NCBI RefSeq assembly: GCF_002007215.1
Contig: NZ_MUHX01000023.1
Span: 1 to 42,452, forward strand
DNA: 42,452 bases
Origin: Pyramidobacter sp. C12-8
GTDB lineage: Bacteria > Synergistota > Synergistia > Synergistales > Dethiosulfovibrionaceae
Direction of reading: 5' to 3'
Shown: positions 602-16,715 of the stretch, piece by piece
Layout: each line of letters starts with the position of its first letter
Position numbering within the stretch: position 1 is the stretch's first letter
Translations under genes and position numbers: made by a program
The notes under the pieces: generated by a model
Told to the model about the DNA's origin: nothing
Databases searched by the model: none
What the model saw: the letters and a program-made list of their open reading frames with translations, nothing else

Positions 602-1594
602 ATGGCTAAGAATTTGCGGGGAAAGAATTTTTTGAAGCTGCTGGATTTTTCGTCCCAGGACATCCGTTATCTGCTTGAGCTCTCGAAGAACTTCAAGTCG
701 ATGAAGCGCGCGGGCGTGCCGCACCGTTACCTCGAGGGCAAGAACATCGTGCTGCTCTTCGAGAAGACCTCGACGAGAACGCGCTGCTCGTTCGAAGTCG
801 CCGGCGCCGATCTGGGCATGGGCGTCACCTATCTCGATCCCGCCGGTTCGCAGATGGGGCACAAGGAGAGCATCAAGGACACGGCGCGCGTGCTGGGACG
901 CATGTTCGACGGCATCGAATACCGCGGTTTCTCGCAGAAGACGGTCGAGGAGCTGGGGGCTTACGCCGGCGTGCCGGTGTGGAACGGCCTGACCGACGAA
1001 TGGCATCCTACGCAGATGCTGGCCGACCTTCTGACGATCGAAGAACACTTCGGCCACCTCAAGGGGCTGAAATTCGTCTACATGGGCGACGCCCGCAACA
1101 ATGTGGCCAACTCGCTGATGATCGCCTGCGCCAAGATGGGCGTCAACTACGTCGCCTGCGCTCCCAGGGAGCTTTTCCCCGATCCCAAGCTGGTCGAGAC
1201 GGCCAAGGAAATTGCCAAAGAGAATTACTGCACTGTGACGCTGACGAGCGACGTCGACGAGGGCACGAAGAACGCCGACGTTCTCTACACGGACATCTGG
1301 GTTTCCATGGGCGAGCCCGCGGAGATCTGGGAGCAGCGCATCAAGCAGCTGAGCCCCTATCAGATCAACGCCAAGGCGATGAAGAACGCGAACGAACAGG
1401 CGATTTTCCTGCACTGCCTGCCCTCTTTCCACGACACCGAGACCAAGGTCGGCAAGGAGATCGCCGACAAGTTCGGCATCACCGAGATGGAGGTCACCAA
1501 CGAGGTTTTCGAGTCGAAGCAGTCCTACGTTTTCGATCAGGCCGAGAACCGCATGCACACCATCAAGGCGGTCATGTACGCGACGCTCTGCTAA
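602..1594 (+). CDS. arcB: Ornithine carbamoyltransferase, probably catabolic
   Basis: The enzyme interconverts citrulline plus phosphate with ornithine plus carbamoyl phosphate in the cytoplasm. The 330-residue protein has the family's usual length. It has the carbamoyl-phosphate motif STRTR (residues 57-61), HPTQ (135-138), the ornithine-binding D-x-x-x-SMG motif (Asp231 to Gly237) and the catalytic HCLP (271-274). The ATG follows a strong ribosome-binding site (caggaggcgcc). The gene opens a plus-strand cluster that also holds carbamate kinase and ornithine-cyclodeaminase-type genes and no arginine biosynthesis genes, so the catabolic direction (citrulline breakdown) is favoured. That direction, and hence the arcB rather than argF name, is inferred from context. 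No arginine deiminase gene is visible. Confidence 0.95.
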
Positions 1595-1678: not shown

Positions 1679-3058
1679 ATGGATTCACCGTTCATGCAAT
1701 CCGTTATCGACAATATCGTTGCGCTGACCGACTTTTTCTGGGGCTGGCCGATCCTGATCCTGCTCATGGGCGGCGGGCTTCTGATCATGTTCCAGCTGCG
1801 TTTCGTGCAGTTCAGGTACTTCACCACGATCATGAAGGAAACGTTCGGCAAGATGTTCAACTCGCACGTCGGCGGCGAAGGCACGGTCTCGCCGTTCCAG
1901 GCGGCTTCGACGGCTCTGGCCTCGTCGATCGGCGCGGCGAACATCGTCGTCGCTCCGGTGATCATCTTCATGGCCGGCCCCGGCGCCGTGTTCTGGATGT
2001 GGGTGGCGGGCATCATCGGCTGCAGCACGAAATTCGCCGAGGTGGCGCTGAGCATCAAGTATCGTGAAACCAACGTCGACGGCGAGTATGTCGGCGGCGC
2101 TTCCTACACGTTCAGGAACGGCATCGGCGGCGTGCTGGGCAAGATCATGGGCTGGACGGTCGCGTTCTTCTTCATGCTCGAAATCCTGCCTTCGATCACG
2201 CTGCAGACGCTTTCCGCAGCCGGCCCGATCGAGCAGCTCGGCGTCAACCCGAAGGTCTCCGTCGTTATCATTTTCATCCTTGTTTCGCTCGTCGTCTTCG
2301 GCGGCGTCAAGCGGATCGGCCAGGTCACCGAGAGAATGGTTCCGTTCATGGCCGGCCTTTACATTATCTTCGGATTCGTGATCATCGTCATGAACGGCGC
2401 GAAGGTTCCTGGCGCGCTGCTGTCCATCTTCCAAGGCGCGTTCAATCCTCAGTCCGTCGCCGGCGGCATCGTCGGCGCCACGCTGGCCAAGGCCATGCAG
2501 AAAGGGATCGCCCGAGGCTGCTACTCGAACGAGGCCGGCATGGGCTCCGCCGGATACGGCCACGCGGCCGCCGTCACGGATCACCCCGCCCGTCAGGGCA
2601 TGTGGGGCATCTTCGAGGTCGTGGCCGACACTCTGATCGTCTGCTCGATCTCCGCGCTGGTCGTCCTCGTCTCCGACGTCTGGAAGAATCCCGCCAATCA
2701 GAACATCGCCATCTATCAGGCGTTCACGGGTGCTTTCGGCGCGTTCGGCTCAGTGTTGATCTCCGTCTGCCTTTTCCTGTTCGTGCTTTCGACGATCATC
2801 GTCATTGTTTTCTACGCTGAAAAGCAGGCCGAGTTCTGCTTCGGCACCGCGATCGGCAAGATCATCCGCGTCGTGGCCAGCCTGATGATCCTGCTGGGGG
2901 CGTTCATCTCCTTCGAGCACGCCGGCGTGTTCCTCGACTTCACGCTCGGGCTGGTGGTCTTTGTCAACATGCTGGGCATGGTGATGATGAGCGGCAAGGT
3001 CAGGGCGATCGTCGACGATTTCTTCGGCAATCCCAAGTATTTTCCCGGCAAAAAGTAA
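1679..3058 (+). CDS. AGCS-family sodium/alanine (amino acid) symporter
   Basis: A 459-residue inner-membrane protein with about ten or eleven hydrophobic segments. The family region reads GTVSPFQAASTALASSIGAANI (start near residue 68), equivalent to the family's GNISPFQAxxTALAATVGTGNI. The usual GTGN core is replaced by GAAN, and the following AG by VV. Known members co-transport alanine, glycine or related amino acids with Na+ or H+. The substitution at the substrate/ion-binding helix break suggests a different substrate. In this cluster citrulline, arginine or ornithine are candidates, but this is only inference. The start follows gagggaggaatcgtt and is well supported. The gene follows arcB after 84 bp that contain a hairpin. 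Confidence 0.9.
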   Translation: MDSPFMQSVIDNIVALTDFFWGWPILILLMGGGLLIMFQLRFVQFRYFTTIMKETFGKMFNSHVGGEGTVSPFQAASTALASSIGAANIVVAPVIIFMAGPGAVFWMWVAGIIGCSTKFAEVALSIKYRETNVDGEYVGGASYTFRNGIGGVLGKIMGWTVAFFFMLEILPSITLQTLSAAGPIEQLGVNPKVSVVIIFILVSLVVFGGVKRIGQVTERMVPFMAGLYIIFGFVIIVMNGAKVPGALLSIFQGAFNPQSVAGGIVGATLAKAMQKGIARGCYSNEAGMGSAGYGHAAAVTDHPARQGMWGIFEVVADTLIVCSISALVVLVSDVWKNPANQNIAIYQAFTGAFGAFGSVLISVCLFLFVLSTIIVIVFYAEKQAEFCFGTAIGKIIRVVASLMILLGAFISFEHAGVFLDFTLGLVVFVNMLGMVMMSGKVRAIVDDFFGNPKYFPGKK

Positions 3059-3098: not shown

Positions 3099-3131
3099 AG
3101 TGCGGTTTATCGCGTGGCGTTAAACCGCACT
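3099..3131 (+). other. Intergenic hairpin without U tract (symporter / Gate protein)
   Basis: Perfect 11-bp inverted repeat agtgcggttta (3099-3109) / taaaccgcact (3121-3131) with an 11-base loop. It lies 25 bp before the ribosome-binding site of the next gene. No T run follows. Like the hairpin at 1613-1646, it may act as an RNA stabiliser or attenuator within the operon. Confidence 0.6.
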
Positions 3132-3155
3132 CCCTGCTCTCTTACAGGAGGAACC

Positions 3156-4313
3156 ATGAAGGCGAACGGGGAAACGGTCAAACTCAAGAAGGAGATCGGA
3201 AAAGAGGCTTTCGTTTTTCTCTTTTTCTTTCTTGCCTTTTTCGTGGGTATCGGCAGCGTCATGGGCTGTACCAACATGTTCAAAACAATGATGCTGACAG
3301 GGTATCAGCTGCTGACGTCCGTCTGCTTCTATCTGATGGCGGTGTCGGTGCTGGCCGGCGGCGCGGCCGGGCTTTTGTCGGAGTTCGGCGTGATCTCTCT
3401 GATCAACCGGGCGCTGCGCCCCGTTATTTATCCGCTGTACGGCCTTCCCGGCTCAAGCGCCCTGGGCATTATGAACTGCTATCTGTCGGACAACCCGGCG
3501 ATCCTGGCCTTCGCCCAGGACGACAACTTCAAGCGCTATTTCAGGAAGTATCAGATGGCGGCGCTGACCAATCTGGGCACGGCGTTTGGCATGGGGTTGA
3601 TCATCACGACAACGATGATGAGTCTGTCGGTCGAGGGAGCCATGAAGGCGGCCCTGATCGGCAATATAGGCGCGATAATCGGTTCCGTCGTTTCGGTGCG
3701 TCTGATGCTGCGCAAAACCAGGGCCTATTACGGTATCGAAACGATGATGCCGGTCTCCGGCGGCGAGACGATCCCCGCGGACATGCGCGTCGTGCGGGAA
3801 GGTTCGGCCGGCTCGCGCTTCATCCAGTCAATGCTGCACGGCGGCAAGAGCGGCGTCGATATGGGCATTTCCATCATTCCCGGCGTGCTGCTGATCTGCA
3901 CGATCGTGCTGATGCTGACGAACGGCCCGGGAGCGGACGGCGTCTACACCGGAGCGGCCGACGAAGGGGTGGCGCTGCTGCCGCTGATCGGTTCAAAGCT
4001 CCGTTTCCTGCTCGATCCGCTGTTCGGCTTCCAGTCGCCGCAGGCCATTGCCGTGCCGATCACGGCGTTGGGCAGCAGCGGCGCGGCGATCGGCATGGTG
4101 GGCGATCTTGTCAAAAAGGGCGCGGCCACGGGCAACGATCTGGCGGTCTTCACGGCGATCTGCATGTGCTGGAGCGGCTATTTCTCCACGCATATCGCCA
4201 TGATGGACGCGCTTGACATGAAGGAAATGACCGGGAACGCGATCCTTTCGCACACGATCGGCGGCCTCTGCGCCGGCATCGCGGCGCATCTGATCTGGAT
4301 GCTGATCGGCTAG
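3156..4313 (+). CDS. Gate (nucleoside-recognition) domain membrane protein, substrate unknown
   Basis: A 385-residue polytopic membrane protein. The ATG at 3156 follows a strong site (acaggaggaacc), so an in-frame start 42 bases upstream is rejected. Small-residue-rich helices, GLPGSSALGIMNCYLSDNPA near the middle of the first half and repeated GSSGAAIGM-type stretches resemble the Gate-domain transporters related to nucleoside permeases. I think it belongs to the CD0519/CD1768 membrane family, whose substrate is not established. Its place between the symporter and the ClpB-like gene, 17 bp ahead of the latter, suggests a transport role in the same amino-acid pathway. This is an inference. 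Confidence 0.75.
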   Translation: MKANGETVKLKKEIGKEAFVFLFFFLAFFVGIGSVMGCTNMFKTMMLTGYQLLTSVCFYLMAVSVLAGGAAGLLSEFGVISLINRALRPVIYPLYGLPGSSALGIMNCYLSDNPAILAFAQDDNFKRYFRKYQMAALTNLGTAFGMGLIITTTMMSLSVEGAMKAALIGNIGAIIGSVVSVRLMLRKTRAYYGIETMMPVSGGETIPADMRVVREGSAGSRFIQSMLHGGKSGVDMGISIIPGVLLICTIVLMLTNGPGADGVYTGAADEGVALLPLIGSKLRFLLDPLFGFQSPQAIAVPITALGSSGAAIGMVGDLVKKGAATGNDLAVFTAICMCWSGYFSTHIAMMDALDMKEMTGNAILSHTIGGLCAGIAAHLIWMLIG

Positions 4314-4330: not shown

Positions 4331-6820
4331 ATGGACTCTTCGAAATTTTCGCAAGAGGTCCTGCGCGTCTTCGCGGAGGCGAAAAACATCGCTATCCGCT
4401 GCGATCATGCGGAGATAACGGACCTGCACCTCTCTCTGGCCATCCTGCGCCAAAAAGAAAGCGAGATCAAGTATCGGCTCCTGGAAGCGGGCGTCGATCT
4501 TCTGTCGTACGAACGGAAGCTGACGGAGGCGCTGCAGAATCGCCGCGCCGCGCCCGGCGTTAGCAAGCTGTATTACAGCCGCCAGTATCACAAGATCGTC
4601 CTGGTCAGCGGCGAGATCGCGCGCGCGTCGTTTGACGCCTATGTGCGCACGCCGCATCTGTATCTGGCCATTCTGCGCGACCGCGAGGCACCGTCGACGG
4701 TCATCGCCGCCGAGTTCGGCGTCACCGTCGAGTCCGTGCAGTCGATGCTGACGGCCCGTCTGACCGCCTCCGACGAACTGGGTATCAGCCCCGAGCAGAT
4801 GGAGCTTCTGAACTGCTTCGGCCGCAACTTCTCGAAGGAAGCCCGCGAAGGTCTGATGGATCCGGTGCTGGGACGCGACGAGGAGATCAACGAATGTTTC
4901 CGCGTCCTCTCGCGCCGTCTCAAGAACAATCCCGTTTTGATCGGCGAAGCGGGAGTCGGCAAGACGGCCATCGCCGAGGGAATCGCCCAGCGTATCGCCA
5001 AACAGGACGCGCCGGCGCTGCTGCGCGGGCGCATCGTCTTTTCGCTGGACATGGCGTCGCTGGTGGCGGGGACTAAGTACCGCGGCGACTTCGAGGAACG
5101 CCTCAAGGAGATCCTAGAGATCGTCAAGGCCTCCAAGGGGCGCATCATTCTTTTCGTCGACGAGCTGCACACCATCATCGGCGCGGGAAACAGCTCCGGC
5201 TCAATGGACACGTCCAACATCCTCAAGCCCTTTCTGGCCCGCGGCGAGATCCTCATGATCGGCGCCACGACGGTCGAGGAATACCGGCGCTACATCGAGC
5301 CGGACCGGGCGCTGGAACGGCGCTTCCAGAAGATCCTCATCGAGGAACCTTCCGAAGAGGCGGCGCTGTCCATGCTGCGCGGCGTCGTCTCGAAATACGA
5401 AACGCATCACCGCGTCCGTATCGCCGACGGCGCGCTCATTGCCGCGATTCAGCTTTCGAAGCGTTACATCACCGACCGTTCCCTGCCGGACAAGGCCATC
5501 GACCTGATCGACGAGGCCGGCGCGATGGTGCGCATGAGCATGGACTCCATGCCGCAGGAGCTAGACGAGTGGAACCGCCGCATCATCCAGTGGGAGATGG
5601 AACACATCCTGCTGCTGGACGAGGCGGATCCCGCGGCGCAGCGGCGGCGGCAGACGCTGGAAAAACAGCTCGAGGGCGAACGCGTCCGCTACGGGGAACG
5701 TTTTGCCGCCTGGCAGAAGGAAGTGGAGCGTCTCGACGAGCTGTCGCGCCTCAAGGAGCTTCGCGACGAAGTGCGCCGCAGCCTGGAAGACGCCCAGGAA
5801 GCTCACCGCGTCGACGACGTGAAACGCTTCGTCGCGGAACGGCAGGCTTTCGACGCCAAGATCGCGGAGATCGAACGGATCGGACCGCACTACCCCGTTT
5901 CGCGGGAAGTGACGGAAGAGGAGATCAAGCGCATCGTCGCTGTCCGCGCCGGCATCCCGCTGTCGAGCATCGGCCGCAGCGAAAGCGAAAAGCTGGAGCA
6001 GGCCGGAAAGAGCCTGCTTGCCGAGTTCGTCGGCCATCGCGACGCGGTTTCCGCCGTTCGGCAGAGCATCCTGCGGGCACGCAGCGGCCTTATGAAGCGC
6101 CGCCGTCCGGTGGGCAGCTTCCTGCTGGTCGGTCCCTCCGGCACCGGCAAGAGCTATCTGGCGGAACTGTTCGCGAAGCATTATTACGAAGACGAACGTT
6201 CGCCATTGTCCTTCAACATGCGCGAGTTCACCGACAAAGCTTCTGTCAATAAACTGATCGGCGCGCCGCCCGGCTATGTCGGACACGACGCGGCCGGCGC
6301 TCTGACGGAAGCGGTGCGCCTGCGCCCTCACAGCGTGATCGTCTTCGAATCGGTTGATCATGCCGGCGCGGAAGTGCTGAGTTTGGTCGCGCGCCTCGCC
6401 GCCGACGGCGAGATCGCCGACAACAGGGGGCGGACCGTCAACTTCCGTAACGCCCTGCTCTTTTTCACCGTCACCGGCACGGACCGCGATCCGCCGGTGC
6501 GCGAACTGCTGCGGGACGGACTCGACGGCGTCTATTACTTCGAGGACTTTTCGCTGCGGGAGCGCCGGGAACTGCTGACACTCCGCCTGCGGGAACTGCA
6601 AAGAGAGCTTGAGGAAGAGCAGATCGAACTGTCGTGGGACGAAGCGACGCTCGACGCCGTCACGGCCGGTTTCGACCGCGCCGAGAGCGGCGCTCATCCT
6701 GTTGCCGGGTATATGGAGCGGACCGTCCTCGCCGATCTGGCTGCGAAAAAACTACTCGGCCGGTTGCGTCCCGGCGCGCGCGTCGTCATAAGGACCGGCG
6801 GCGCGGATGTCGTTTCCTGA
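4331..6820 (+). CDS. ClpB-like AAA+ protein with degenerate second ATPase module
   Basis: An 829-residue paralogue of ClpB/ClpC-type unfoldases. Order: Clp N-terminal repeats (about 5-145); first AAA+ module with intact Walker A GEAGVGKT (205-212), pore loop GTKYRG (247-252), Walker B ILFVDE (263-268) and arginine fingers Arg330/Arg331; a ClpB-like coiled-coil middle domain (about 405-525); second AAA+ module with Walker A GPSGTGKS (601-608) and pore loop GAPPGYVG (644-651). In the second module the Walker B pair is Glu-Ser (673-674) instead of Asp-Glu, sensor-1 Asn is Thr715, the arginine finger position is Gly730, and sensor-2 GAR reads GAH (787-789). That module could bind ATP but probably not hydrolyse it. 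The gene starts 17 bp after the Gate gene and precedes carbamate kinase. It is not the housekeeping ClpB by sequence. Its client is unknown. Confidence 0.88.
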
Positions 6821-6855: not shown

Positions 6856-7785
6856 ATGAAAAAAGTAGTCATTGCGCTGGGCGGCAACGCCCTTGGAAAC
6901 ACGCCTGAGGAGCAGAAGGAACGCGTCAAGCACTCCGCGCGTTCCATCGTCGATTTCGTTCAGTCCGGCGTTCAGGTGCTGGTGTGTCACGGCAACGGCC
7001 CGCAGGTCGGCATGATCAAGAAGTCGATGGATATCGCCGCCAAATCGGGCGAGAAGCTGCCCTACGTGCCGTTCCCGGAGTGCGGATCCATGAGCGAAGG
7101 CTACATCGGCTTCCACCTGCAGAATGCCATTGGCAACGAGTTCCGCGCCAGGAAGATGAACGACAGCGTCGCCACTCTCGTGACGCAGGTCCAGGTCGAC
7201 GCTTGCGACCCGTCTTTCCAGCGCCCGACCAAGCCGATCGGCACCTTCATGAGCAAGGAAGACGCCGACAAACTGGCAGCTGCGGGCGTGGCCGTGGCCG
7301 AAGACGCCGGCCGCGGCTACCGTCAGGTCGTCGCCTCTCCGGCGCCTGTCCGCATCGTCGAGGAAGAGGTCGTCCGCAAGCTGCTCGACCAGGGCGTGAC
7401 CGTCATCGCGGGCGGCGGCGGAGGAGTGCCCGTCGTGGAGAAAGACGGCGTGCTGAAGGGCGTCGACGCGGTGATCGACAAGGACTTCACGTCGGTGAAG
7501 CTGGCCGAGACGATCGACGCCGACGTGGTGGTGATCCTCACCGCCGTAGAAAAAGTGGCGATCCGCTTTGGCACGCCGGATCAGCTGTGGCTCGATAAGC
7601 TGACGGTGGCCGAAGCCAAGAAGTACATCGAGGACAAGGAGTTCGCCGAAGGTTCCATGCTGCCGAAGATCAGAGCGGCCATCAAGTTCGCCGAGTCGAA
7701 ACCGGGCCGCAAGGCGCTGATCACGTCGCTGGAGAAGGCGAAGGAAGGTCTGGAAGGCTCGACCGGCACCTGGATCCAGGCGTAG
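6856..7785 (+). CDS. arcC: Carbamate kinase
   Basis: It transfers the phosphate of carbamoyl phosphate to ADP, giving ATP, CO2 and ammonia, the energy-conserving step of citrulline or arginine fermentation. The 309-residue length is normal. Family motifs are visible: the N-terminal ALGGNALG, CHGNGPQVG near residue 50, and the glycine-rich VIAGGGGGVPV in the C-terminal half. The ATG follows ataggagattata. It is separated from arcB by about 5 kb of transport and chaperone-like genes but stays in the same strand and cluster, so the two probably act together. Confidence 0.96.
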   Translation: MKKVVIALGGNALGNTPEEQKERVKHSARSIVDFVQSGVQVLVCHGNGPQVGMIKKSMDIAAKSGEKLPYVPFPECGSMSEGYIGFHLQNAIGNEFRARKMNDSVATLVTQVQVDACDPSFQRPTKPIGTFMSKEDADKLAAAGVAVAEDAGRGYRQVVASPAPVRIVEEEVVRKLLDQGVTVIAGGGGGVPVVEKDGVLKGVDAVIDKDFTSVKLAETIDADVVVILTAVEKVAIRFGTPDQLWLDKLTVAEAKKYIEDKEFAEGSMLPKIRAAIKFAESKPGRKALITSLEKAKEGLEGSTGTWIQA

Positions 7786-7835: not shown

Positions 7836-9167
7836 ATGACTTCCCGGAAAAATCCCGGACAGAGGAAGCGCGTGGAAATTCAGGAATTTTACCGCACGGC
7901 GTCCCGCGAGGGCGTCGCGACTTATTTCGAAGTGCAGTCGGACAGCGCGCCGACCAAGCCGCTGCTGCACAAAAACAGCCGTTTCCTCTACGTCCTTTCG
8001 GGAAAAGGCACGATCAGGATCTACGACAAAGACTATGCGATGGAGCCGGGCGCGGTCATCGCCCTACTGCCATGGGAAATTTCCGAAATCGTCGAAGTGA
8101 AGGAACCGCTGTGCTATTACCTGCTGATCTATCCGTTCGAGTTTCTGAATTTCATCGTCAAAAACCAGTTCAACATCGAAAACGAGAAATTCGACATGGT
8201 CACGCTTCTGTATCGCTACGGCGGCGTGCGCGTCCCGGAGCAGGAGCGTCCGCGCGTCAGGGCCCTCTTCGACGAGATCCGCCGCGAGATCGAACCGGTT
8301 TCCATCGCAACGTCCGCCGTCCGCCAGTCGTGGTCCGAGCTGTACCTGACGGCGAAGCTGGTGGAACTGGTCGTCCTCTACCTGCGCTTGGCGCAGGACC
8401 AGGAAGAACGTTCCGACGGACAGGCCCGTCTTGAAAAAGAGGAAGAAAGCTGTTCCCCCCACATTTTTCAGTACATGTACCTGAATCTGCACCGCAAGCT
8501 GACGCTTCAGGACCTGAGCCGGATCTATTTTGTCAGCGAAGCGTCGCTTTCCCGCTACATCTTCAAGGTGACCGGGCTCGGTTTTTACGAGCTGCTTCAG
8601 GAAATGAAGCTGTCGAAGGTCACGTTTCTGCTGCTGCACACGAATATTTCCCTGGCGGAGATCGCCGACATCCTCGATTACTCCGACATATCGCATCTGT
8701 CCCGCGTCTTTTCCGACCAGCAAGGGATCGGAGCGCAGCAGTTCCGCCGCTGCTACCGGAACAATCCCGGCGTCTCCATGGTTTTGCCCGCGCCGAAAGC
8801 CGGCAAGATCATCGAATACATATATCGGAATTTTGCGAGCGATCTTACCGTTTTGGACGTGGCGGAACAGTTCAATGCCTCTCCCAGGATGGTCAACGAA
8901 TCCCTGGTCTACATCGTCGAGATGAACTTTACGAATTTCCTGAATTACCTGCGCATCCACGAGGCGGCGAACCTGCTGCTTCGCACCGATCAGTCGGTGA
9001 CGGATATCGCGTTTCAGGTCGGCTACAATTCACTGCGGAGTTTCAACCGTAACTTCCTGAAATGGCTGAAAGTTACGGCCAGCGAGTTTCGAGAGCGAGT
9101 GACGGAACAGAAAGACACGGTGGACATCGGCCACCTGTTTCGTTCGTCCAGAGAGGAGCAATCATGA
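7836..9167 (+). CDS. AraC-family regulator with cupin-like sensor and two HTH domains
   Basis: A 443-residue protein. Residues 1-110 look like an AraC-type cupin ligand-binding domain (LLHKNSRFLYVLSGKGTIRI, then MEPGAVIALLPW). Two complete AraC DNA-binding domains follow: residues about 208-306 (LTLQDLSRIYFVSEASLSRY ... ISLAEIADILDYSDISHLSRVF) and about 323-420 (LTVLDVAEQFNASPRMVNES ... SVTDIAFQVGYNSLRSFNRNF). A single HTH pair is the family norm, so this is a tandem-domain form. Its stop codon overlaps the next gene's start (ATGA), which couples its synthesis to the downstream enzymes. It likely senses a pathway amino acid and controls the cluster, but no operator could be identified. Confidence 0.9.
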   Translation: MTSRKNPGQRKRVEIQEFYRTASREGVATYFEVQSDSAPTKPLLHKNSRFLYVLSGKGTIRIYDKDYAMEPGAVIALLPWEISEIVEVKEPLCYYLLIYPFEFLNFIVKNQFNIENEKFDMVTLLYRYGGVRVPEQERPRVRALFDEIRREIEPVSIATSAVRQSWSELYLTAKLVELVVLYLRLAQDQEERSDGQARLEKEEESCSPHIFQYMYLNLHRKLTLQDLSRIYFVSEASLSRYIFKVTGLGFYELLQEMKLSKVTFLLLHTNISLAEIADILDYSDISHLSRVFSDQQGIGAQQFRRCYRNNPGVSMVLPAPKAGKIIEYIYRNFASDLTVLDVAEQFNASPRMVNESLVYIVEMNFTNFLNYLRIHEAANLLLRTDQSVTDIAFQVGYNSLRSFNRNFLKWLKVTASEFRERVTEQKDTVDIGHLFRSSREEQS

Positions 9168-10330
9168 AGTTTGAAATGCCTGTCTTTGCGTGCCCCGACT
9201 TCGCCGACGCGAAGTATCGGGAAGCGGGCGAAGTGAAATGCGCGAAAGTCGAGAAGAAAGGCGTGGCGCCGCGCGGTTTTTATCTGACCACCCATCTGCC
9301 AACCTTTTATCGCTGCAACGGAACGTGGCAGCTGCCGGAGCACAATTCGCTGAACTGCGTGGCCGTGCTCAAAGAGGGGAAAATCGCCGTCACGGAGATC
9401 CGCGACCTCGAAGTGGGGGACGAGGTCGTTCTGGGGCGCGCGACCGACGGCTCCGAGGGCGTCCTCGTGTACAAGGAAGGCTTCCCCGAAAGCGTTTACG
9501 CCACGCCCGGCCGCGCCGTGGAGACCGCCTACACGACCGATTACGAACAGCTGTTCGCGCAGCTCGAATACGAGCGCGACAACGGAGGCTACATCGTTTG
9601 GGTGCTGGGGCCGAGCGTCGTCTTCGACTACGACACGCGCGTCGCCCTCAACCACCTGGCCGAGAACGGCTACATCAGCTGCATGATGGGCGGCAACGCC
9701 ATGGCTACGCACGACCTCGAGGGCGGTTTCCTCGGCACCGCGCTGGGACAGAACATCTACACGCAGGAAAACCAGCCGATGGGGCACTACAACCACCTCG
9801 ACCTGCTCAACGAAGTGCGCACGGCCGGCTCCACGAAAAAATTCATCAACGAAGGCCACGTCAAAGACGGCATCATCAAGACGCTCGTCTCGATGAACGT
9901 GCCCTTGGTCCTCGCCGGCTCGATCCGCGACGACGGCCCGCTGCCCGAAGTGATCGGCGACACCGACAAGGCGCTGACGGAGATGAAAAAGCACCTCGAC
10001 AAGGCCACGCTGATCATCGGCATCGCCACGATGCTGCACAGCCTTTCCGTCGCCAACATGGCGTCGAGCTATCACGTGCGAAAAGACGGCGCCATCACGC
10101 CGGTCTACATGTACACCATCGACATCACCGAGAACGTCACCAACAAGGTAGTCGCGGCCCGCGAGCGCATCGCCGTCGTGCCGATGAACACCAACGTCCA
10201 GGACTTCGTCGTCAACTGCGAACGCGCGCTGATCGGCGCCGTCGCCCGGGAGCAGGTGGAGGCGATGGAAGTCCCCGCCGAGGAATTCGTCGTCGTCAAA
10301 AACGCGCAGCGTGAGGAGGCGGGCAAATGA
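9164..10330 (+). CDS. LOR/SDH (TIGR00300) family protein, probable ornithine cyclodeaminase
   Basis: A 388-residue protein of the LOR/SDH-domain family that includes the archaeal ornithine cyclodeaminase and the C-terminal part of cyanobacterial AgrE/ArgZ, which turn ornithine into proline and ammonia. Family hallmarks are all present: GGNAMATHDLE followed by GTALGQN, and LAGSIRDDGPLPEVIGD. The ATG at 9164 overlaps the regulator's stop and follows gagaggagcaatc, so longer in-frame starts upstream are rejected. Its 3' end overlaps the paralogue by ATGA. With arcB and arcC this would allow citrulline to be converted to proline with ATP gain. The family assignment is firm; the reaction is inferred. 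Confidence 0.85.
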   Translation: MKFEMPVFACPDFADAKYREAGEVKCAKVEKKGVAPRGFYLTTHLPTFYRCNGTWQLPEHNSLNCVAVLKEGKIAVTEIRDLEVGDEVVLGRATDGSEGVLVYKEGFPESVYATPGRAVETAYTTDYEQLFAQLEYERDNGGYIVWVLGPSVVFDYDTRVALNHLAENGYISCMMGGNAMATHDLEGGFLGTALGQNIYTQENQPMGHYNHLDLLNEVRTAGSTKKFINEGHVKDGIIKTLVSMNVPLVLAGSIRDDGPLPEVIGDTDKALTEMKKHLDKATLIIGIATMLHSLSVANMASSYHVRKDGAITPVYMYTIDITENVTNKVVAARERIAVVPMNTNVQDFVVNCERALIGAVAREQVEAMEVPAEEFVVVKNAQREEAGK

Positions 10331-11430
10331 ATTTCGAAATGCCGAAATATCGCCACCCCGATTTTGAGCAGGAGTTCCTGAAAAACGCGCCCAACTGCCG
10401 TCTCGAAACCGTCGAGCGCGACGGGATCAGCCCCCGTCGTTACCACGCCCTGTCGGTCTACCCCGAGTATTTCAAGATCAACGACAAATGGGTACTGGCG
10501 ACGCAGAGCCGCATGGACACCGTCTGCGTGGCCCGCGACACGCCCGGCCGGGAGCGCGTCGAGATCGTCGAGTTCCGTAACCTGAAAAAAGGCGACAAAG
10601 TCGTGATCGGCCGTACCGAAGACGCCAGCGAAGGCATCTACGTGTGGACGCAGGGCTTCCTCGCCGAAACCGCGACCTCCGACACCTTCGCTTTCCGCGA
10701 AGGCCGTTCGCGCGAGACCGCCTACTCGCTCGACTACGACACGCTCTACGAAGTGCTGCGGCACGAGCGCGAACACCGCGGCTACGTGACGCTCGTCATC
10801 GGTACGGCGCTGGCCCTCGACCAGAACTCGCGTCTTGGCCTGGAGCGCCTGATCCGCAACGGCTACGTGCAGGCCGTCTTCTGCGGTTCCGAAACCGCCG
10901 CTTTCGATCTCGAGCGCGGCGTCTTCGACACGTCGTGGGGACAGAAAATCTTCGAACACGAGCAGAACAGCACCTACAACCTCTACGACACCATCAACCT
11001 CGCCAACTCCTACGGTTCGCTGGAAGCGCTCGTCGCCTCCGGCAAGGTCAAAGACGGCTTCGTCAAGGCCTGCGTCGAATGCGGCACAGCTCTGGTCATG
11101 GCCGGCACCATCCGCGACCGCCTGGCCCTGCCCGGCGCCTGCAACAACGTCTACGCCGCTCAGAACGCCATGCGCGTCCACGCCCGCAAGACCTCGACCA
11201 TGATCATGATGTCAGCGATCCTTTACACCATCGCCACCGGCAACATGACCCCCTCGTACAACGAGTTCGACGGCGTCGTCCGTCCCGTCTACATGTATAC
11301 CGTCGACGTGCAGGAATTCGCCGTCAACAAGCTGTCCGACCGCGGCACCGTCACGGCCGTCAGCATGGTCACCAACACGCAGGATTTCGTGCGCAACCTC
11401 GACCGCGCGCTGAACAGGCCTCAGGATTGA
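10327..11430 (+). CDS. LOR/SDH (TIGR00300) family paralogue lacking hallmark residues
   Basis: A 367-residue homologue of the preceding gene along its whole length (both begin with FEMP, share ETAY, VKDGF/VKDGI, PVYMYT and TNTQDFV/TNVQDFV). Each family hallmark is altered: GGNAMATHD becomes GSETAAFD, GTALG becomes DTSWG, and SIRDDGPLPE becomes TIRDRLALPG. The His and several acidic residues of the putative active site are therefore missing. It may be a non-catalytic subunit that pairs with the intact paralogue, or an enzyme with another substrate. It overlaps the upstream gene by ATGA, which favours co-assembly. It ends just before a very strong bidirectional terminator. Confidence 0.82.
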   Translation: MNFEMPKYRHPDFEQEFLKNAPNCRLETVERDGISPRRYHALSVYPEYFKINDKWVLATQSRMDTVCVARDTPGRERVEIVEFRNLKKGDKVVIGRTEDASEGIYVWTQGFLAETATSDTFAFREGRSRETAYSLDYDTLYEVLRHEREHRGYVTLVIGTALALDQNSRLGLERLIRNGYVQAVFCGSETAAFDLERGVFDTSWGQKIFEHEQNSTYNLYDTINLANSYGSLEALVASGKVKDGFVKACVECGTALVMAGTIRDRLALPGACNNVYAAQNAMRVHARKTSTMIMMSAILYTIATGNMTPSYNEFDGVVRPVYMYTVDVQEFAVNKLSDRGTVTAVSMVTNTQDFVRNLDRALNRPQD

Positions 11431-12356: not shown

Positions 12357-12508
12357 ACGTCGCCGGGCGTCGGAAGCAGGTGAAAATCCTGCGCGGCCCC
12401 GCCACTGTAACCCCTGACGAAGCGGTATCACGCTCACTGAAGGCTTTCGGCCTTTGGGAAGGGCGCCGCGGAGGACGATGGGGAGTCAGGATACGCGCCG
12501 GGCGACGC
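12357..12508 (+). ncRNA. Cobalamin (B12) riboswitch
   Basis: The conserved aptamer core gcaggtgaaaatcctgc followed by gcggccccgccactgtaa (about 12375-12410) and the 3' B12 box gagtcaggatacgcgcc (about 12483-12499) are unmistakable. A closing helix pairs cgtcgcc (12358-12364) with ggcgacg (12501-12507). It lies between a consensus promoter and an intrinsic terminator, upstream of B12-type transporter genes. This indicates repression by adenosylcobalamin or a related cobamide through premature termination. Confidence 0.95.
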
Positions 12509-12568
12509 GAAGGAAGGCTTTTGCGCGGGCGAAATCTTTTCAGGGCAGCAGATATCACTGTCTCTAAA

Positions 12569-12596
12569 GGCACGGCCGCGGACCGTGTCTTTTTTT
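12569..12596 (+). terminator. Riboswitch-controlled terminator
   Basis: Stem ggcacgg / ccgtgtc (12569-12575 / 12583-12589, one wobble) followed by seven T (12590-12596). It lies about 60 bases after the aptamer and 70 bases before the first gene, so it is the likely expression platform. Confidence 0.8.
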
Positions 12597-12667
12597 ATGC
12601 CCGCGTTTTCTATAGAGGCGAGCCGGCGGGGGCCGGGTCACGTTTTTTTGCGCAGGAGGTTCACAGC

Positions 12668-13675
12668 ATGAAAAAGATTCTTCGCAGCTTTTTTGCGGCA
12701 GCCGGTTTACTGGCCATAACCGCGGCGTCCTTCGCGGCGGAGACCGTTTATCCCGTAACCGTCGAGAACGGCGACCGCAAGATCGTCTTCGAAAAAGCGC
12801 CCGAGCGCGTCGTCACCAACGGCGACAGCAACATCATTGAACTGATGTTCGCCCTCGGCCTCGAAAGCCGCATGGCGGGCTACGCGGGATTCCCCGAGTA
12901 CGGCGGTCAAGTCTCGCCGGAATACCGGGAGAAGCTCAAGGCGATCCCCGTTGCCGCGCCCGGCTACATCACGCTGGAAGCGCTGCTTGGCACCGATCCC
13001 GACTTTTTCCTGTCGGGTTACAACTACGGACTTGACATCCCCGGCAGCACGGCCGGCGGTGCCATCACGCCCGAAGAGCTGGAAAAGCACGGCGTCAAGA
13101 GCTACGCCATCACCGAGTCGCTGATCCACGTGATGAAAAAGCCCATCGTCAGCCTCGAGGACACCTACGCCGACCTGACCAAGCTGGGCGTGATCTTCGA
13201 CGCGCAGGACAAGGCGCGGCAGGTGATCGACGGCATGAAAGCGCGCGCCGCGGCGGTGGAAGCCAAGCTGTCGCAGCTCGACTTGGCCAAGCCCTTGAAC
13301 GTGTTCATCCATCCCACCTGGAGCGCCCCCGATCAGCCTCCCCGTTCCAACGGCGCTCAGGCCATGCCCAGCGCTCTGGTGACGATGGCGAAGGCGCGCA
13401 ACATCTTTGCCGACGTCGACGGCAGCTGGATCAAGGTGACGTGGGAAGAGGTCGTCGCGCGCAATCCCGACGTGATCCTGCTGCTGGAAGCCGGTACGAC
13501 GAACGGCGAGGAACGTAAAAAGCTGCTGCTCGAGAATCCCGCGCTGCAGGGCGTGAACGCCGTGAAGGATGGGCGCGTTTACATCATTCGCATCGAAGAC
13601 GCCTATCCCGGCCCCCGCGCCATCCGCGGCCTGGAACTGATTTCCAAAGCCTTTTATCCCGAACTGTTCAAGTAG
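12668..13675 (+). CDS. B12-type ABC transporter substrate-binding protein, copy 1
   Basis: A 335-residue periplasmic binding protein of the BtuF/TroA-like fold. The signal peptide is visible (KKILRSFFAAAGLLAITAASFA). Family features include PERVVTNGDSNIIELMFALG, DFFLSGYNYGLD and WEEVVARNPDVILL. The ATG at 12668 follows gcaggaggttcacagc; an in-frame extension back into the riboswitch is rejected. The riboswitch directly upstream makes a cobamide or its precursor the likely ligand. It is nearly identical in its N-terminal half to the next gene, so the two are a tandem duplication. In the C-terminal half they diverge (NVFIHPTWSAPDQPPRSNGA here). Confidence 0.88.
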   Translation: MKKILRSFFAAAGLLAITAASFAAETVYPVTVENGDRKIVFEKAPERVVTNGDSNIIELMFALGLESRMAGYAGFPEYGGQVSPEYREKLKAIPVAAPGYITLEALLGTDPDFFLSGYNYGLDIPGSTAGGAITPEELEKHGVKSYAITESLIHVMKKPIVSLEDTYADLTKLGVIFDAQDKARQVIDGMKARAAAVEAKLSQLDLAKPLNVFIHPTWSAPDQPPRSNGAQAMPSALVTMAKARNIFADVDGSWIKVTWEEVVARNPDVILLLEAGTTNGEERKKLLLENPALQGVNAVKDGRVYIIRIEDAYPGPRAIRGLELISKAFYPELFK

Positions 13676-13769
13676 CTGAAAGAAGCTTTTCAGGAGGCCT
13701 GCCGTTGCGTCCGTAAGGCGTGCGCGCAGAAGGACGGACGGCGCTCCGTCGTGCGTTGAAAAAATGCAG

Positions 13770-13810
13770 GCCCTGTTCTCGTGGAACGATCCGCGGAGCA
13801 GGGCTTTTTT
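13770..13810 (+). terminator. Internal terminator between the two binding-protein genes
   Basis: Stem gccctgttc / gagcagggc (13770-13778 / 13796-13804, one wobble) followed by six T. It sits between two paralogous genes of the same operon, so it should make the first binding protein more abundant than the downstream genes, unless a second promoter lies in 13680-13860, where I found none that convinces. Confidence 0.75.
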
Positions 13811-13863
13811 CGCAGCCTTTCGGGGCCGCGTCGCTTTGTCATCTTATTTGAATCGGAGGTCCT

Positions 13864-14871
13864 ATGATGAGGAAATCGCTTCACGTCATTTTTGCGGCGC
13901 TGCTGAGCGCCGTTTTTTTCGCCGCAGCCGCAGGCGCGGCAGAAACGGTTTATCCCGTAACCGTCGAGAACGGCGACCGCAAGATCGTCTTTGAAAAAGC
14001 GCCCGAGCGCGTCGTCACCAACGGCGACAGCAATATCATCGAGCTGATGTTCGCGCTTGGTCTTGAAGACCGGCTCGTAGGTTATGCGGGATTCCCCGGC
14101 TCGAAACACCAGGTTTCCCCCGAATACCGCGAGAAGCTGGCGAAGATCCCCGTGGCCCAGGAAGGTTACATTGCGCTGGAAACTTTGCTCGGCGCCAATC
14201 CCGACTTTTTCCTGTCGGGCTACAACTACGGCCTCGATATCCCCGGCAGCACGGCCGGCAACGCCGTCACGCCCGAAGAGCTGGAAAAGCATGGCGTCAA
14301 GAGCTACGCCATCACGGAATCGCTGATCCGCGTGATGGACAAGCCGCCTGTGACGCTGGAAGATACCTATAACGACCTTCGCACCCTGGGCGTGATTTTC
14401 AACGTGCAGGATAAGGCCGAGGCGGTGATCGCCGGCATGAAAGCGAGAGTCGCGACCGTAGGGGAAAAACTTGACGGCGTGAGAGAAAGTCCGCGCGTGT
14501 TCATCTTCCGCAGCTTCGGAACGCCCAACGAAGACGTGCCTCGCTCCTGCGGCGGACAGGCCATGCCCAGCGCTCTGCTCCGCTTGGCGCATGCCGCCAA
14601 CGTCTTCGACGACGTGGAAAGCAGCTGGATCAAGGTGACGTGGGAAGAAGTCGTCGCCCGCGATCCCGACGTGATCCTGATCCTCGAATACCGCGCCACG
14701 CCGGAAAACGAAAGCAAGGCCATGCTGCTCGACCATCCCGCGCTGCAGGGCGTCAAAGCCGTCCGCGACAAAAAACTGATCTACATGTCGGTGGACGAAG
14801 TCTATCCGGGTCCGCGAGCCGTTCGCGGACTGGAACTGATCGCTCGCGGGCTGTATCCCGCGATATTTTAA
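13864..14871 (+). CDS. btuF: B12-type ABC transporter substrate-binding protein, copy 2
   Basis: A 335-residue paralogue of the preceding gene with its own signal peptide (RKSLHVIFAALLSAVFFAAAAGA) and ribosome-binding site (cggaggtcct). Mature N-terminal residues (ETVYPVTVENGDRKIVFEKA and onward) are identical to copy 1 for more than 40 residues, and codons are almost identical too. The C-terminal half differs (RVFIFRSFGTPNEDVPRSCG). It abuts the permease gene with no gap, so it is probably the partner of BtuC/BtuD. The gene symbol is by context. Confidence 0.87.
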   Translation: MMRKSLHVIFAALLSAVFFAAAAGAAETVYPVTVENGDRKIVFEKAPERVVTNGDSNIIELMFALGLEDRLVGYAGFPGSKHQVSPEYREKLAKIPVAQEGYIALETLLGANPDFFLSGYNYGLDIPGSTAGNAVTPEELEKHGVKSYAITESLIRVMDKPPVTLEDTYNDLRTLGVIFNVQDKAEAVIAGMKARVATVGEKLDGVRESPRVFIFRSFGTPNEDVPRSCGGQAMPSALLRLAHAANVFDDVESSWIKVTWEEVVARDPDVILILEYRATPENESKAMLLDHPALQGVKAVRDKKLIYMSVDEVYPGPRAVRGLELIARGLYPAIF

Positions 14872-15933
14872 GTGAACCGGTTCTTTGTCAAACGAGATCT
14901 GGCGCCGCTGCTGATCCTCTTGACGATCCTGCTGTTTTTCAGCGTAACTCTGGGAGTATCGATGGGGACGGCGCCGCTGCCGTTCCGGCATGTGTGGGGC
15001 ATCATCCTCCATCAGATGTTTCCGGACTGGCAATGGTTCGGGGCGGAATGGCCGCGCAACGAAGTCGGTATCGTCTGGATGATCCGTTTCCCGCGCGTGC
15101 TGCTCGGCGCTGTCGTCGGCGCGGGCCTTGCCACCGCGGGGGCGGTGATCCAGTCGCTGGTCCGCAATTCGCTGGCCGATCCCTATCTGCTGGGGATTTC
15201 TTCGGGCGCATGTGCGGGGGCGGTGTTTGCCATGCTCTTCATGACGCGGGTTTTCGGCATCGCTCTGACCGGCATGTCCGGAGTCTCCGCGCTGGCCTTT
15301 GCCGGTGCGGCGTTGGCTTTCGTGCTGGTTTTCGCCATAGCGCGTCAGGGCAGCGGCCTGACGCCGGTGCGGATGGTCCTGTCGGGACTTGCCGTGTCGT
15401 ACGTGTTTATGGCCGTGACCAATTTCATGGTCTATCTGGAACAGCGCAACGGCGCCGAATCGGCGATGTTCTGGATGCTCGGCGGGCTCGGCGGCGCAAG
15501 ATGGGATCGTCTGCCGTTGCCTTTTTTCGTGCTGATCGGTTCTCTTGCCCTGTTCATCGCCCAGTCGCGCCCGCTCAACGCCTTGCTGCTGGGCGACGAG
15601 AACGCGGCGGCGCTCGGCGTGGACGTGACGAAATTCCGCCGTCTTCTGTTCACCGCCACTTCGGTGCTGACCGGGGTGATCGTAGCGGTCAGCGGTTCGA
15701 TCGGTTTCGTCGGACTGATCGTTCCGCACGCCGTGCGGCTGCTGGTCGGTTCCGACCATCGCCGCCTCCTGCCGGTGGGGGCGCTCGCGGGAGCGAGCTT
15801 TCTGATCTGGACGGATGTGTTCGCGCGCACCGCTCTGGCTCCGCGGGAGCTTCCTCTGGGCATCGTCACGGGCTTTATCGGCGCGCCGTTTTTCATCTGG
15901 CTGCTCAAAAGCAGCGGGAGAACCCCGCGATGA
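14872..15933 (+). CDS. btuC: B12-type ABC transporter permease (FecCD family)
   Basis: A 353-residue inner-membrane permease with about ten segments. It shows FecCD hallmarks: LATAGAVIQSLVRNSLADPYLLGISSGA in the first third, GFVGLIVPHAVRLLVG and, near the C-terminus, RELPLGIVTGFIGAPFFIWLL. It starts with GTG immediately after the TAA of the binding protein, without a clear ribosome-binding site, so translation is probably coupled. The stop overlaps the ATPase start (ATGA). Riboswitch control points to a cobamide substrate, although the family also moves haem and siderophores. Confidence 0.92.
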   Translation: MNRFFVKRDLAPLLILLTILLFFSVTLGVSMGTAPLPFRHVWGIILHQMFPDWQWFGAEWPRNEVGIVWMIRFPRVLLGAVVGAGLATAGAVIQSLVRNSLADPYLLGISSGACAGAVFAMLFMTRVFGIALTGMSGVSALAFAGAALAFVLVFAIARQGSGLTPVRMVLSGLAVSYVFMAVTNFMVYLEQRNGAESAMFWMLGGLGGARWDRLPLPFFVLIGSLALFIAQSRPLNALLLGDENAAALGVDVTKFRRLLFTATSVLTGVIVAVSGSIGFVGLIVPHAVRLLVGSDHRRLLPVGALAGASFLIWTDVFARTALAPRELPLGIVTGFIGAPFFIWLLKSSGRTPR

Positions 15934-16715
15934 AGCTGACAATCGAATCGCTGCGCTGGGGAGTCGGAACCGCGGATATCGTGAGCGGCGCCGACTTGAA
16001 AGTGGAACGCGGCGAGTTCGTCGGCGTGATCGGCCCCAACGGCAGCGGCAAATCCAGTTTGCTGCGCTGCGCATACCGCGTCAATAGGCCGCGCTTCGGT
16101 TCGATCCTGCTGGACGACGAAGAGGTTTGGGGTCTGCGCGCCCGGGAATTCGCGCGCCGCGCCGCGGCAGTGCCGCAGGAGATGCCGGGACAGTTCGACT
16201 TCACCGTGCGCGAGATCGCCGCGATGGGGCGTTATCCGCACAAAAAGGCGTTGCAGCGCGACGACGCGCATGATTTCGAGTTGGTGGAGCGCGCGTTGGA
16301 ATACGTGGGAATGCGGGAACGGGGCGGACGCAGTTTTGCCTCGCTGTCCGGCGGCGAAAAACAGCGCGCTCTGATTGCCCGTGCCATTGCGCAGGAGACG
16401 GACTTTCTGATCCTCGACGAGCCCACCAACCACCTCGACATCTATTATCAGCTCGAGATCATGGACCTGCTGCGCAGTCTCGGCGTCACCTCGCTGGTCG
16501 TCATGCACGACCTGAACCTGGCGGCACAGTACTGCGACCGCATTTACGTGATGAAGGACGGTCAGGTCTTCGCCAGCGGTGCTCCGGCCGAGGTGCTCAC
16601 GCCCGAACTGATCCGCGCCGTTTACCGTGTGGAGGCCAGCGTTGCTCCCAACCCCGAGACGGGACGGCCGCAGATCGTTTTTCTGCACCGCCTGAGCTCC
16701 GGCGGCGCTTTCTAA
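15930..16715 (+). CDS. btuD: B12-type ABC transporter ATP-binding protein
   Basis: A 261-residue ABC ATPase with Walker A GPNGSGKS (35-42), Q-loop Gln83, signature LSGGEKQ (139-145), Walker B LILDEP (160-165) and switch His193. It powers the BtuC permease from the cytoplasmic face. The start is the ATG that overlaps the btuC stop. A longer in-frame reading back to 14640 only shadows btuC in another frame. It is the last gene of the riboswitch-controlled operon. Confidence 0.93.
   Translation: MKLTIESLRWGVGTADIVSGADLKVERGEFVGVIGPNGSGKSSLLRCAYRVNRPRFGSILLDDEEVWGLRAREFARRAAAVPQEMPGQFDFTVREIAAMGRYPHKKALQRDDAHDFELVERALEYVGMRERGGRSFASLSGGEKQRALIARAIAQETDFLILDEPTNHLDIYYQLEIMDLLRSLGVTSLVVMHDLNLAAQYCDRIYVMKDGQVFASGAPAEVLTPELIRAVYRVEASVAPNPETGRPQIVFLHRLSSGGAF

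Follow-up and report, generated by a model that had tools for sequence, protein, structure and literature searches.

ClpB is normally a general disaggregase, and the genome of Pyramidobacter sp. C12-8 (2.67 Mb, 99% complete) encodes a separate normal ClpB (C103) as well as a ClpC (C29). Why, then, does it also carry a ClpB-like Hsp100 gene with a defective second ATPase module (D2), placed within a cluster of metabolic and transport genes? The stretch of DNA analysed here (the window, 42,452 nucleotides) holds this gene in the order ornithine carbamoyltransferase (OTC), AgcS, CD0519-family membrane protein, ClpB-like, carbamate kinase (ArcC), AraC regulator and two ornithine cyclodeaminase (OCD) homologues, OCDa and OCDb. 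The ClpB-like reading frame is real and intact, with 829 codons, and lies where the preliminary description placed it. Pfam, NCBIfam and a PDB sequence search all assign it to the ClpB type, and it shares with ClpB/Hsp104 (TIGR03346) the N-D1-M-D2 domain order, the Hsp100 fold, an intact D1 and the pore loops. However, the TIGR03346 match of 742.3 bits falls below the equivalog cut-off of 1232 bits, and only one of its two ATPase rings is catalytically competent. It differs further in being a second copy beside a metabolic enzyme and in belonging to a derived clade that lacks the D2 catalytic residues, one member of which has no M-domain. The window protein is thus an Hsp100 by fold that departs from ClpB in two defining respects, score and second motor. 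No [ILV]GF tripeptide for ClpP docking follows its D2 pore loop, and no CbbX-type match was listed in the family searches of this two-module Hsp100.

Alignment with the ClpB and ClpC of the same genome shows that D1 is complete, with its Walker motif, the pore loop KYRG, Walker B VDE, GATT and the arginine finger ERRF. In D2, Walker A and the pore loop persist while the residues of Walker B, sensor-1, the arginine finger and sensor-2 are replaced (Table 1), and the stretch from sensor-1 to the finger is shortened (14 residues versus 37 in the genome's own ClpB). This bears out, residue by residue, the preliminary description of an intact first and a catalytically dead second module. These changes are not an assembly error, because a same-species genome (G053) carries a 100% identical gene and a congener (G069) a 97% identical one with the same D2 residues. 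Nor is this the housekeeping copy, since a separate ClpB is present, in agreement with the preliminary description. Synonymous divergence (Ks) from the congener locus L069 is about 0.3–0.55 from OTC to D1 of the ClpB-like gene, and about 0.02–0.1 from around codon 340 of that gene onwards; judged by this drop, there is an apparent recombination breakpoint inside the gene.

Table 1. Features of the ClpB-like gene and its cluster, in window coordinates.
Feature	Position	Strand	Remarks
OTC	602..1594	+	Ornithine carbamoyltransferase
AgcS	1679..3058	+	Sodium:alanine symporter family
CD0519/CD1768 family	3114..4313	+	Membrane protein
ClpB-like Hsp100 gene	4331..6820	+	829 aa: N-domain, D1, M-domain, dead D2
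D1 ATPase module	4793..5536	+	aa 155-402; catalytic motifs and pore loop all intact
M-domain	5537..5905	+	Coiled coil, aa 403-525
D2 Walker A	6131..6154	+	GPSGTGKS, kept
D2 pore loop	6260..6283	+	GAPPGYVG, kept; GAPPG[YF][VI]G in all OCD-linked ClpBs
D2 Walker B	6347..6352	+	Asp-Glu to Glu-Ser (E673/S674)
D2 sensor-1	6473..6475	+	Asn to Thr (T715)
D2 arginine finger	6518..6520	+	To Gly (G730)
D2 sensor-2	6695..6697	+	Arg to His (GAR to GAH, H789)
ArcC	6856..7785	+	Carbamate kinase
AraC-family regulator	7836..9167	+	3' end overlaps OCDa start
OCDa	9164..10330	+	His-rich subunit of NPN-type ornithine cyclodeaminase pair; proposed client
OCDa C-terminal extension	10235..10327	+	About 31 aa; disorder predicted; candidate handle for ClpB-like ring
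OCDb	10327..11430	+	Second cyclodeaminase subunit, complementary active-site residues, no tail

Searching genome-wide with the CD0519-family membrane protein, we found four Bacillota loci that hold the whole cluster, and D2 is dead in all four. When a profile of dead D2 modules was run against 249 genomes of one Bacillota order, the dead-D2 family (about 285–475 bits) was separated by a clear gap from housekeeping ClpB (at most about 264 bits), and every match clearly above the housekeeping proteins (more than about 285 bits) lay near an OCDa/OCDb pair. We read the surroundings of 20 genes that were top-scoring or adjacent, and those of another 20 OCD pairs. The pair stood near 28 of the 28 ClpB-like genes sampled, in two phyla. 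At three loci (L196, L197 and L199) the gene opens an operon of the order ClpB-like, OCDa, OCDb, LarE, LarB and LarC, followed by ABC transporter genes, with no OTC, ArcC, AgcS or CD0519. Because these last four come and go among ClpB-like loci, the enzyme pair, not a transporter, is the constant partner, and the tie between the ClpB-like protein and the OCD enzyme is well supported. The ClpB-like gene is not required by every OCD pair, since 21 sampled pairs manage without a linked copy. A Clp gene near the pair of G257 (L229), considered as a counter-example to the linkage, proved to be an ordinary ClpC. The preliminary description had proposed checking for recurrence beside arcC: dead-D2 relatives do recur, but ArcC is variable where the OCD pair is constant, and the substituted residues vary. 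Its broader idea, that the protein is a remodelling factor devoted to an enzyme complex of this pathway, is supported, although it overlooked the partner itself, the OCD pair 2.3 kb downstream, along with its tail.

Several other features of these neighbourhoods were recorded. A transposase-type gene (HTH_38 and rve) is inserted between AgcS and CD0519 at L193:5657-6640, and the CD0519/CD1768 family (L073-L152) is widespread in Bacillota, mostly without a ClpB-like gene. The window at 12380-16074 holds a gene for a Peripla_BP_2 periplasmic binding protein with a second copy behind it; a 794-aa minus-strand reading frame at 13690-16074 matched no family and looks like an antisense artefact.

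Members of the dead-D2 clade keep the D1 motifs and both pore loops (KYRG or KFRG in D1, GAPPGYVG in D2), while Walker B, sensor-1 and the arginine finger vary from member to member. Two of them (L200 and L201) also lack the D2 Walker A, whereas every member retains the pore loop. The proposal of D2 as a nucleotide-binding scaffold, or as a strictly required nucleotide-binding ring, is therefore not general to the family. One dead-D2 protein (L202:9318-11720) lacks the entire M-domain. In a ClpB tree built by a quick method and containing long branches, the OCD-linked proteins form one clade apart from housekeeping ClpBs (SH-aLRT 100), within which the 20 dead-D2 members group together as a single derived clade (SH-aLRT 100). 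D2 is intact in two basal groups beside OCD pairs, group A (L205-L208), whose long branch makes its placement less sure and which we treated as basal, and group B (L209, L210, L232 and L233, the last two assigned by tree position). Because the dead-D2 clade is derived and the basal OCD-linked groups are intact, D2 hydrolysis was lost once, in the ancestor of that clade, after linkage to OCD was established. Homologues with normal D2 residues, which might have undermined the preliminary description, thus exist beside OCD genes as distant relatives, but their basal position shows the ancestral condition and leaves that description standing. The group A proteins present a mirror image of the window case, in that D2 is intact and the D1 pore loop is changed from KYRG to GLRG.

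Ratios of dN/dS are 0.017–0.042 for D1 and, with most relatives, mostly 0.04–0.18 for D2, which is under purifying selection. Together with the recurrence of the family, these low ratios rule out a pseudogene or decay of D2 and uphold the earlier view that selection maintained the module. The window gene is nested in a Bacillota clade and the genome's own ClpB lies outside it, which points to horizontal transfer of the ClpB-like gene.

OCDa and OCDb are homologues, and both match NCBIfam NF052526, 'putative NPN-dependent ornithine cyclodeaminase'. We took the start of OCDa as 9164, as in relatives, the open frame extending back to 9062. The solved folds nearest to the OCDa model are ArgZ/AgrE and 3c2q, and the solved structure of the related AgrE (6lrg) contains NAD+. 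LarC and LarE, which belong to the synthesis of NPN (the nickel-pincer nucleotide), are encoded in seven of seven genomes tested. The NCBIfam name and the lar-gene neighbours, the two grounds for this assignment, suggest that NPN is the cofactor of the window OCD. Columns that are invariant in single-gene OCDs split cleanly between the two subunits: OCDa keeps a His/Asp/Tyr cluster (H195, H220, H223, D269 and H304 in L246 numbering) and has lost the Arg/Glu/Gln residues, and OCDb shows the reverse pattern. Because these losses are complementary, OCDa and OCDb probably form a composite active site, each needing the other. The OCDa/OCDb enzyme of the window (9164-11430) and its relatives is a heteromeric version of the single-gene enzyme that is apparently undescribed in the open literature searched.

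OCDa carries a C-terminal tail for which a long form was never found on OCDb in the sampled loci. Counted from the NVQDF motif, the tail has 44–53 residues at 28 of 28 loci with a ClpB-like gene and 15–31 residues at 19 of 21 loci without one; single-gene OCDs extend 14–18 residues past the motif. The association is strong when the kinship of the sequences is ignored (Fisher p=1e-11), whereas an OCD tree yields five independent contrasts, of which three show the tail following the ClpB-like gene, none opposes and two show no difference (sign test p=0.25). One of the two long-tailed exceptions, G046 of the same genus as the window, has undergone a recent deletion of the ClpB-like gene that left about 75 C-terminal codons between CD0519 and arcC (L065:2704-2928); AgcS is also deleted, and the rest of the cluster is kept at 92–96% identity. 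The other, at L218, has ClpB-carrying relatives as its sister group. Conversely, at L215 and L229, which are nested among carriers, both the ClpB-like gene (without a remnant) and the tail motif are gone. The dead-D2 group shares a tail motif of about MEIPExEYV (MEVPAEEFV in the window), and the tail is predicted to be disordered (pLDDT 34–40, against mostly >90 in the core). Relaxed selection on the tail after loss of the ClpB-like gene was considered for G046, where 9 of 31 tail positions are changed, compared with 0 of 31 in G069; because tails at other loci also evolve fast, this count does not single out relaxed selection. The OCDa core changes more slowly than the tail, which could serve another role.

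Taken together, these observations point to a specialised AAA+ enzyme chaperone that evolved from ClpB. We favour, with modest confidence, an Hsp100 devoted to a single client, the cyclodeaminase, which it would remodel for the loading or rescue of cofactor by taking hold of the OCDa tail. The ring would grip this flexible tail on OCDa, where the His cluster is retained, and limited pulling driven by D1 would open the active site of the pair, allowing cofactor to be loaded, or spent cofactor or an inhibitor to be released. D1 would be the sole motor and D2 a passive second ring whose fold and pore loop are kept. We infer the physical contact with OCDa, the pulling on the tail and the loading or rescue of cofactor alike. 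NPN is reported to be chemically unstable (PMC11796402). A more specific form of this reading, which we advance tentatively, is that a ClpB paralog has become the first enzyme-specific activase for an NPN enzyme, reading a C-terminal tag on its client and, by means of one active ring beside a passive one, loading or renewing NPN in a heteromeric ornithine cyclodeaminase. Our search of the open-access literature, which took in little of the subscription journals, returned nothing relevant that linked ClpB with ornithine cyclodeaminase or NPN with ornithine.

The same evidence can be read in other ways. The ClpB-like protein might aid OCDa and OCDb in folding or pairing, for example by using the tail to break up OCDa self-assemblies, with no role in cofactor handling. 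We think this rather unlikely: it would suit a heteromer made obligate by complementary residues, derived from a single-gene enzyme and tailed on one subunit only, but OCD pairs without a ClpB-like gene exist, though mostly tail-less, and at three loci the gene shares one operon with cofactor synthesis genes. It is less probable still that the protein extracts or inactivates OCDa through a degron-like tail, so shutting the pathway off. Disordered C-terminal tags are classic Hsp100 signals, and apart from recent losses the tail is found only with the unfoldase; however, there is neither a ClpP docking loop nor a protease gene in the cluster, and the gene shares an operon with enzyme and cofactor genes instead of standing in opposition to them. 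That a general stress disaggregase paralog travels in the cluster by chance we consider very improbable, for although the N-domain, M-domain and D1 are all of ClpB type and the ClpP-binding tripeptide was not seen, the genomes examined have a normal ClpB, the D2 motor is dead in 20 members, the M-domain is lost in L202, and the linkage to OCD spans two phyla and comes with the tail. We give hardly any credence to the preliminary description's other candidate, a remodelling factor for the neighbouring AgcS or CD0519 transporter-type protein: AgcS and the ClpB-like gene are both absent from G046, but neither transporter-type gene is near the ClpB-like gene at L196, L197, L199 and L209, where the OCD pair is present as always, L239 has both without a ClpB-like gene, and most of 80 CD0519 loci lack one.

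The favoured reading, of a client-dedicated Hsp100, has partial precedents. In NSF and other double-ring AAA+ proteins one ring works and the other is structural, as would be the case here; NSF differs in being a classical AAA protein, not an Hsp100, and in requiring ATP binding by its D2; here Walker A is absent from two relatives. OCDa shares the fold of the ArgZ/AgrE ornithine cyclodeaminase domain and of 3c2q, but is one of two gene products with split active sites and a tail on one. SpoVK is likewise an AAA+ chaperone narrowed to one enzyme, MurG (PMC10659427); it belongs to the CbbX/EccA clade and a sporulation setting, and no client tail is described in the passages of that paper considered here. 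A parallel in arrangement is the Rubisco activase CbbX, whose gene adjoins that of its enzyme and which, by a canonical pore loop, acts on Rubisco through the C-terminal extension of RbcL, pulled into its pore (PMC5385338). CbbX is a small single-ring AAA+ protein of another clade, in contrast to the two-ring Hsp100 and nickel-type enzyme considered here, for which pulling would be the presumed mode of action. As in tail-pulling activases, the gene lies near its proposed client (28/28), the long tail is tied to the partner (28/28 with it versus 2/21 without) and the active ring has canonical pore loops.

The natural variants with tail present or absent, and with D2 intact or dead, make the hypothesis directly testable. 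If it is correct, a ClpB lineage would have become tied to one metabolic enzyme, losing one motor and keeping both pore loops, which would mark a route from unfoldase to repair machine and a parallel with the Rubisco activases, where the same shift arose independently. The NPN cofactor is hard to load in the laboratory. The ClpB-like protein would be the first chaperone to be tied to enzymes that use NPN, and might aid in making active holoenzymes.
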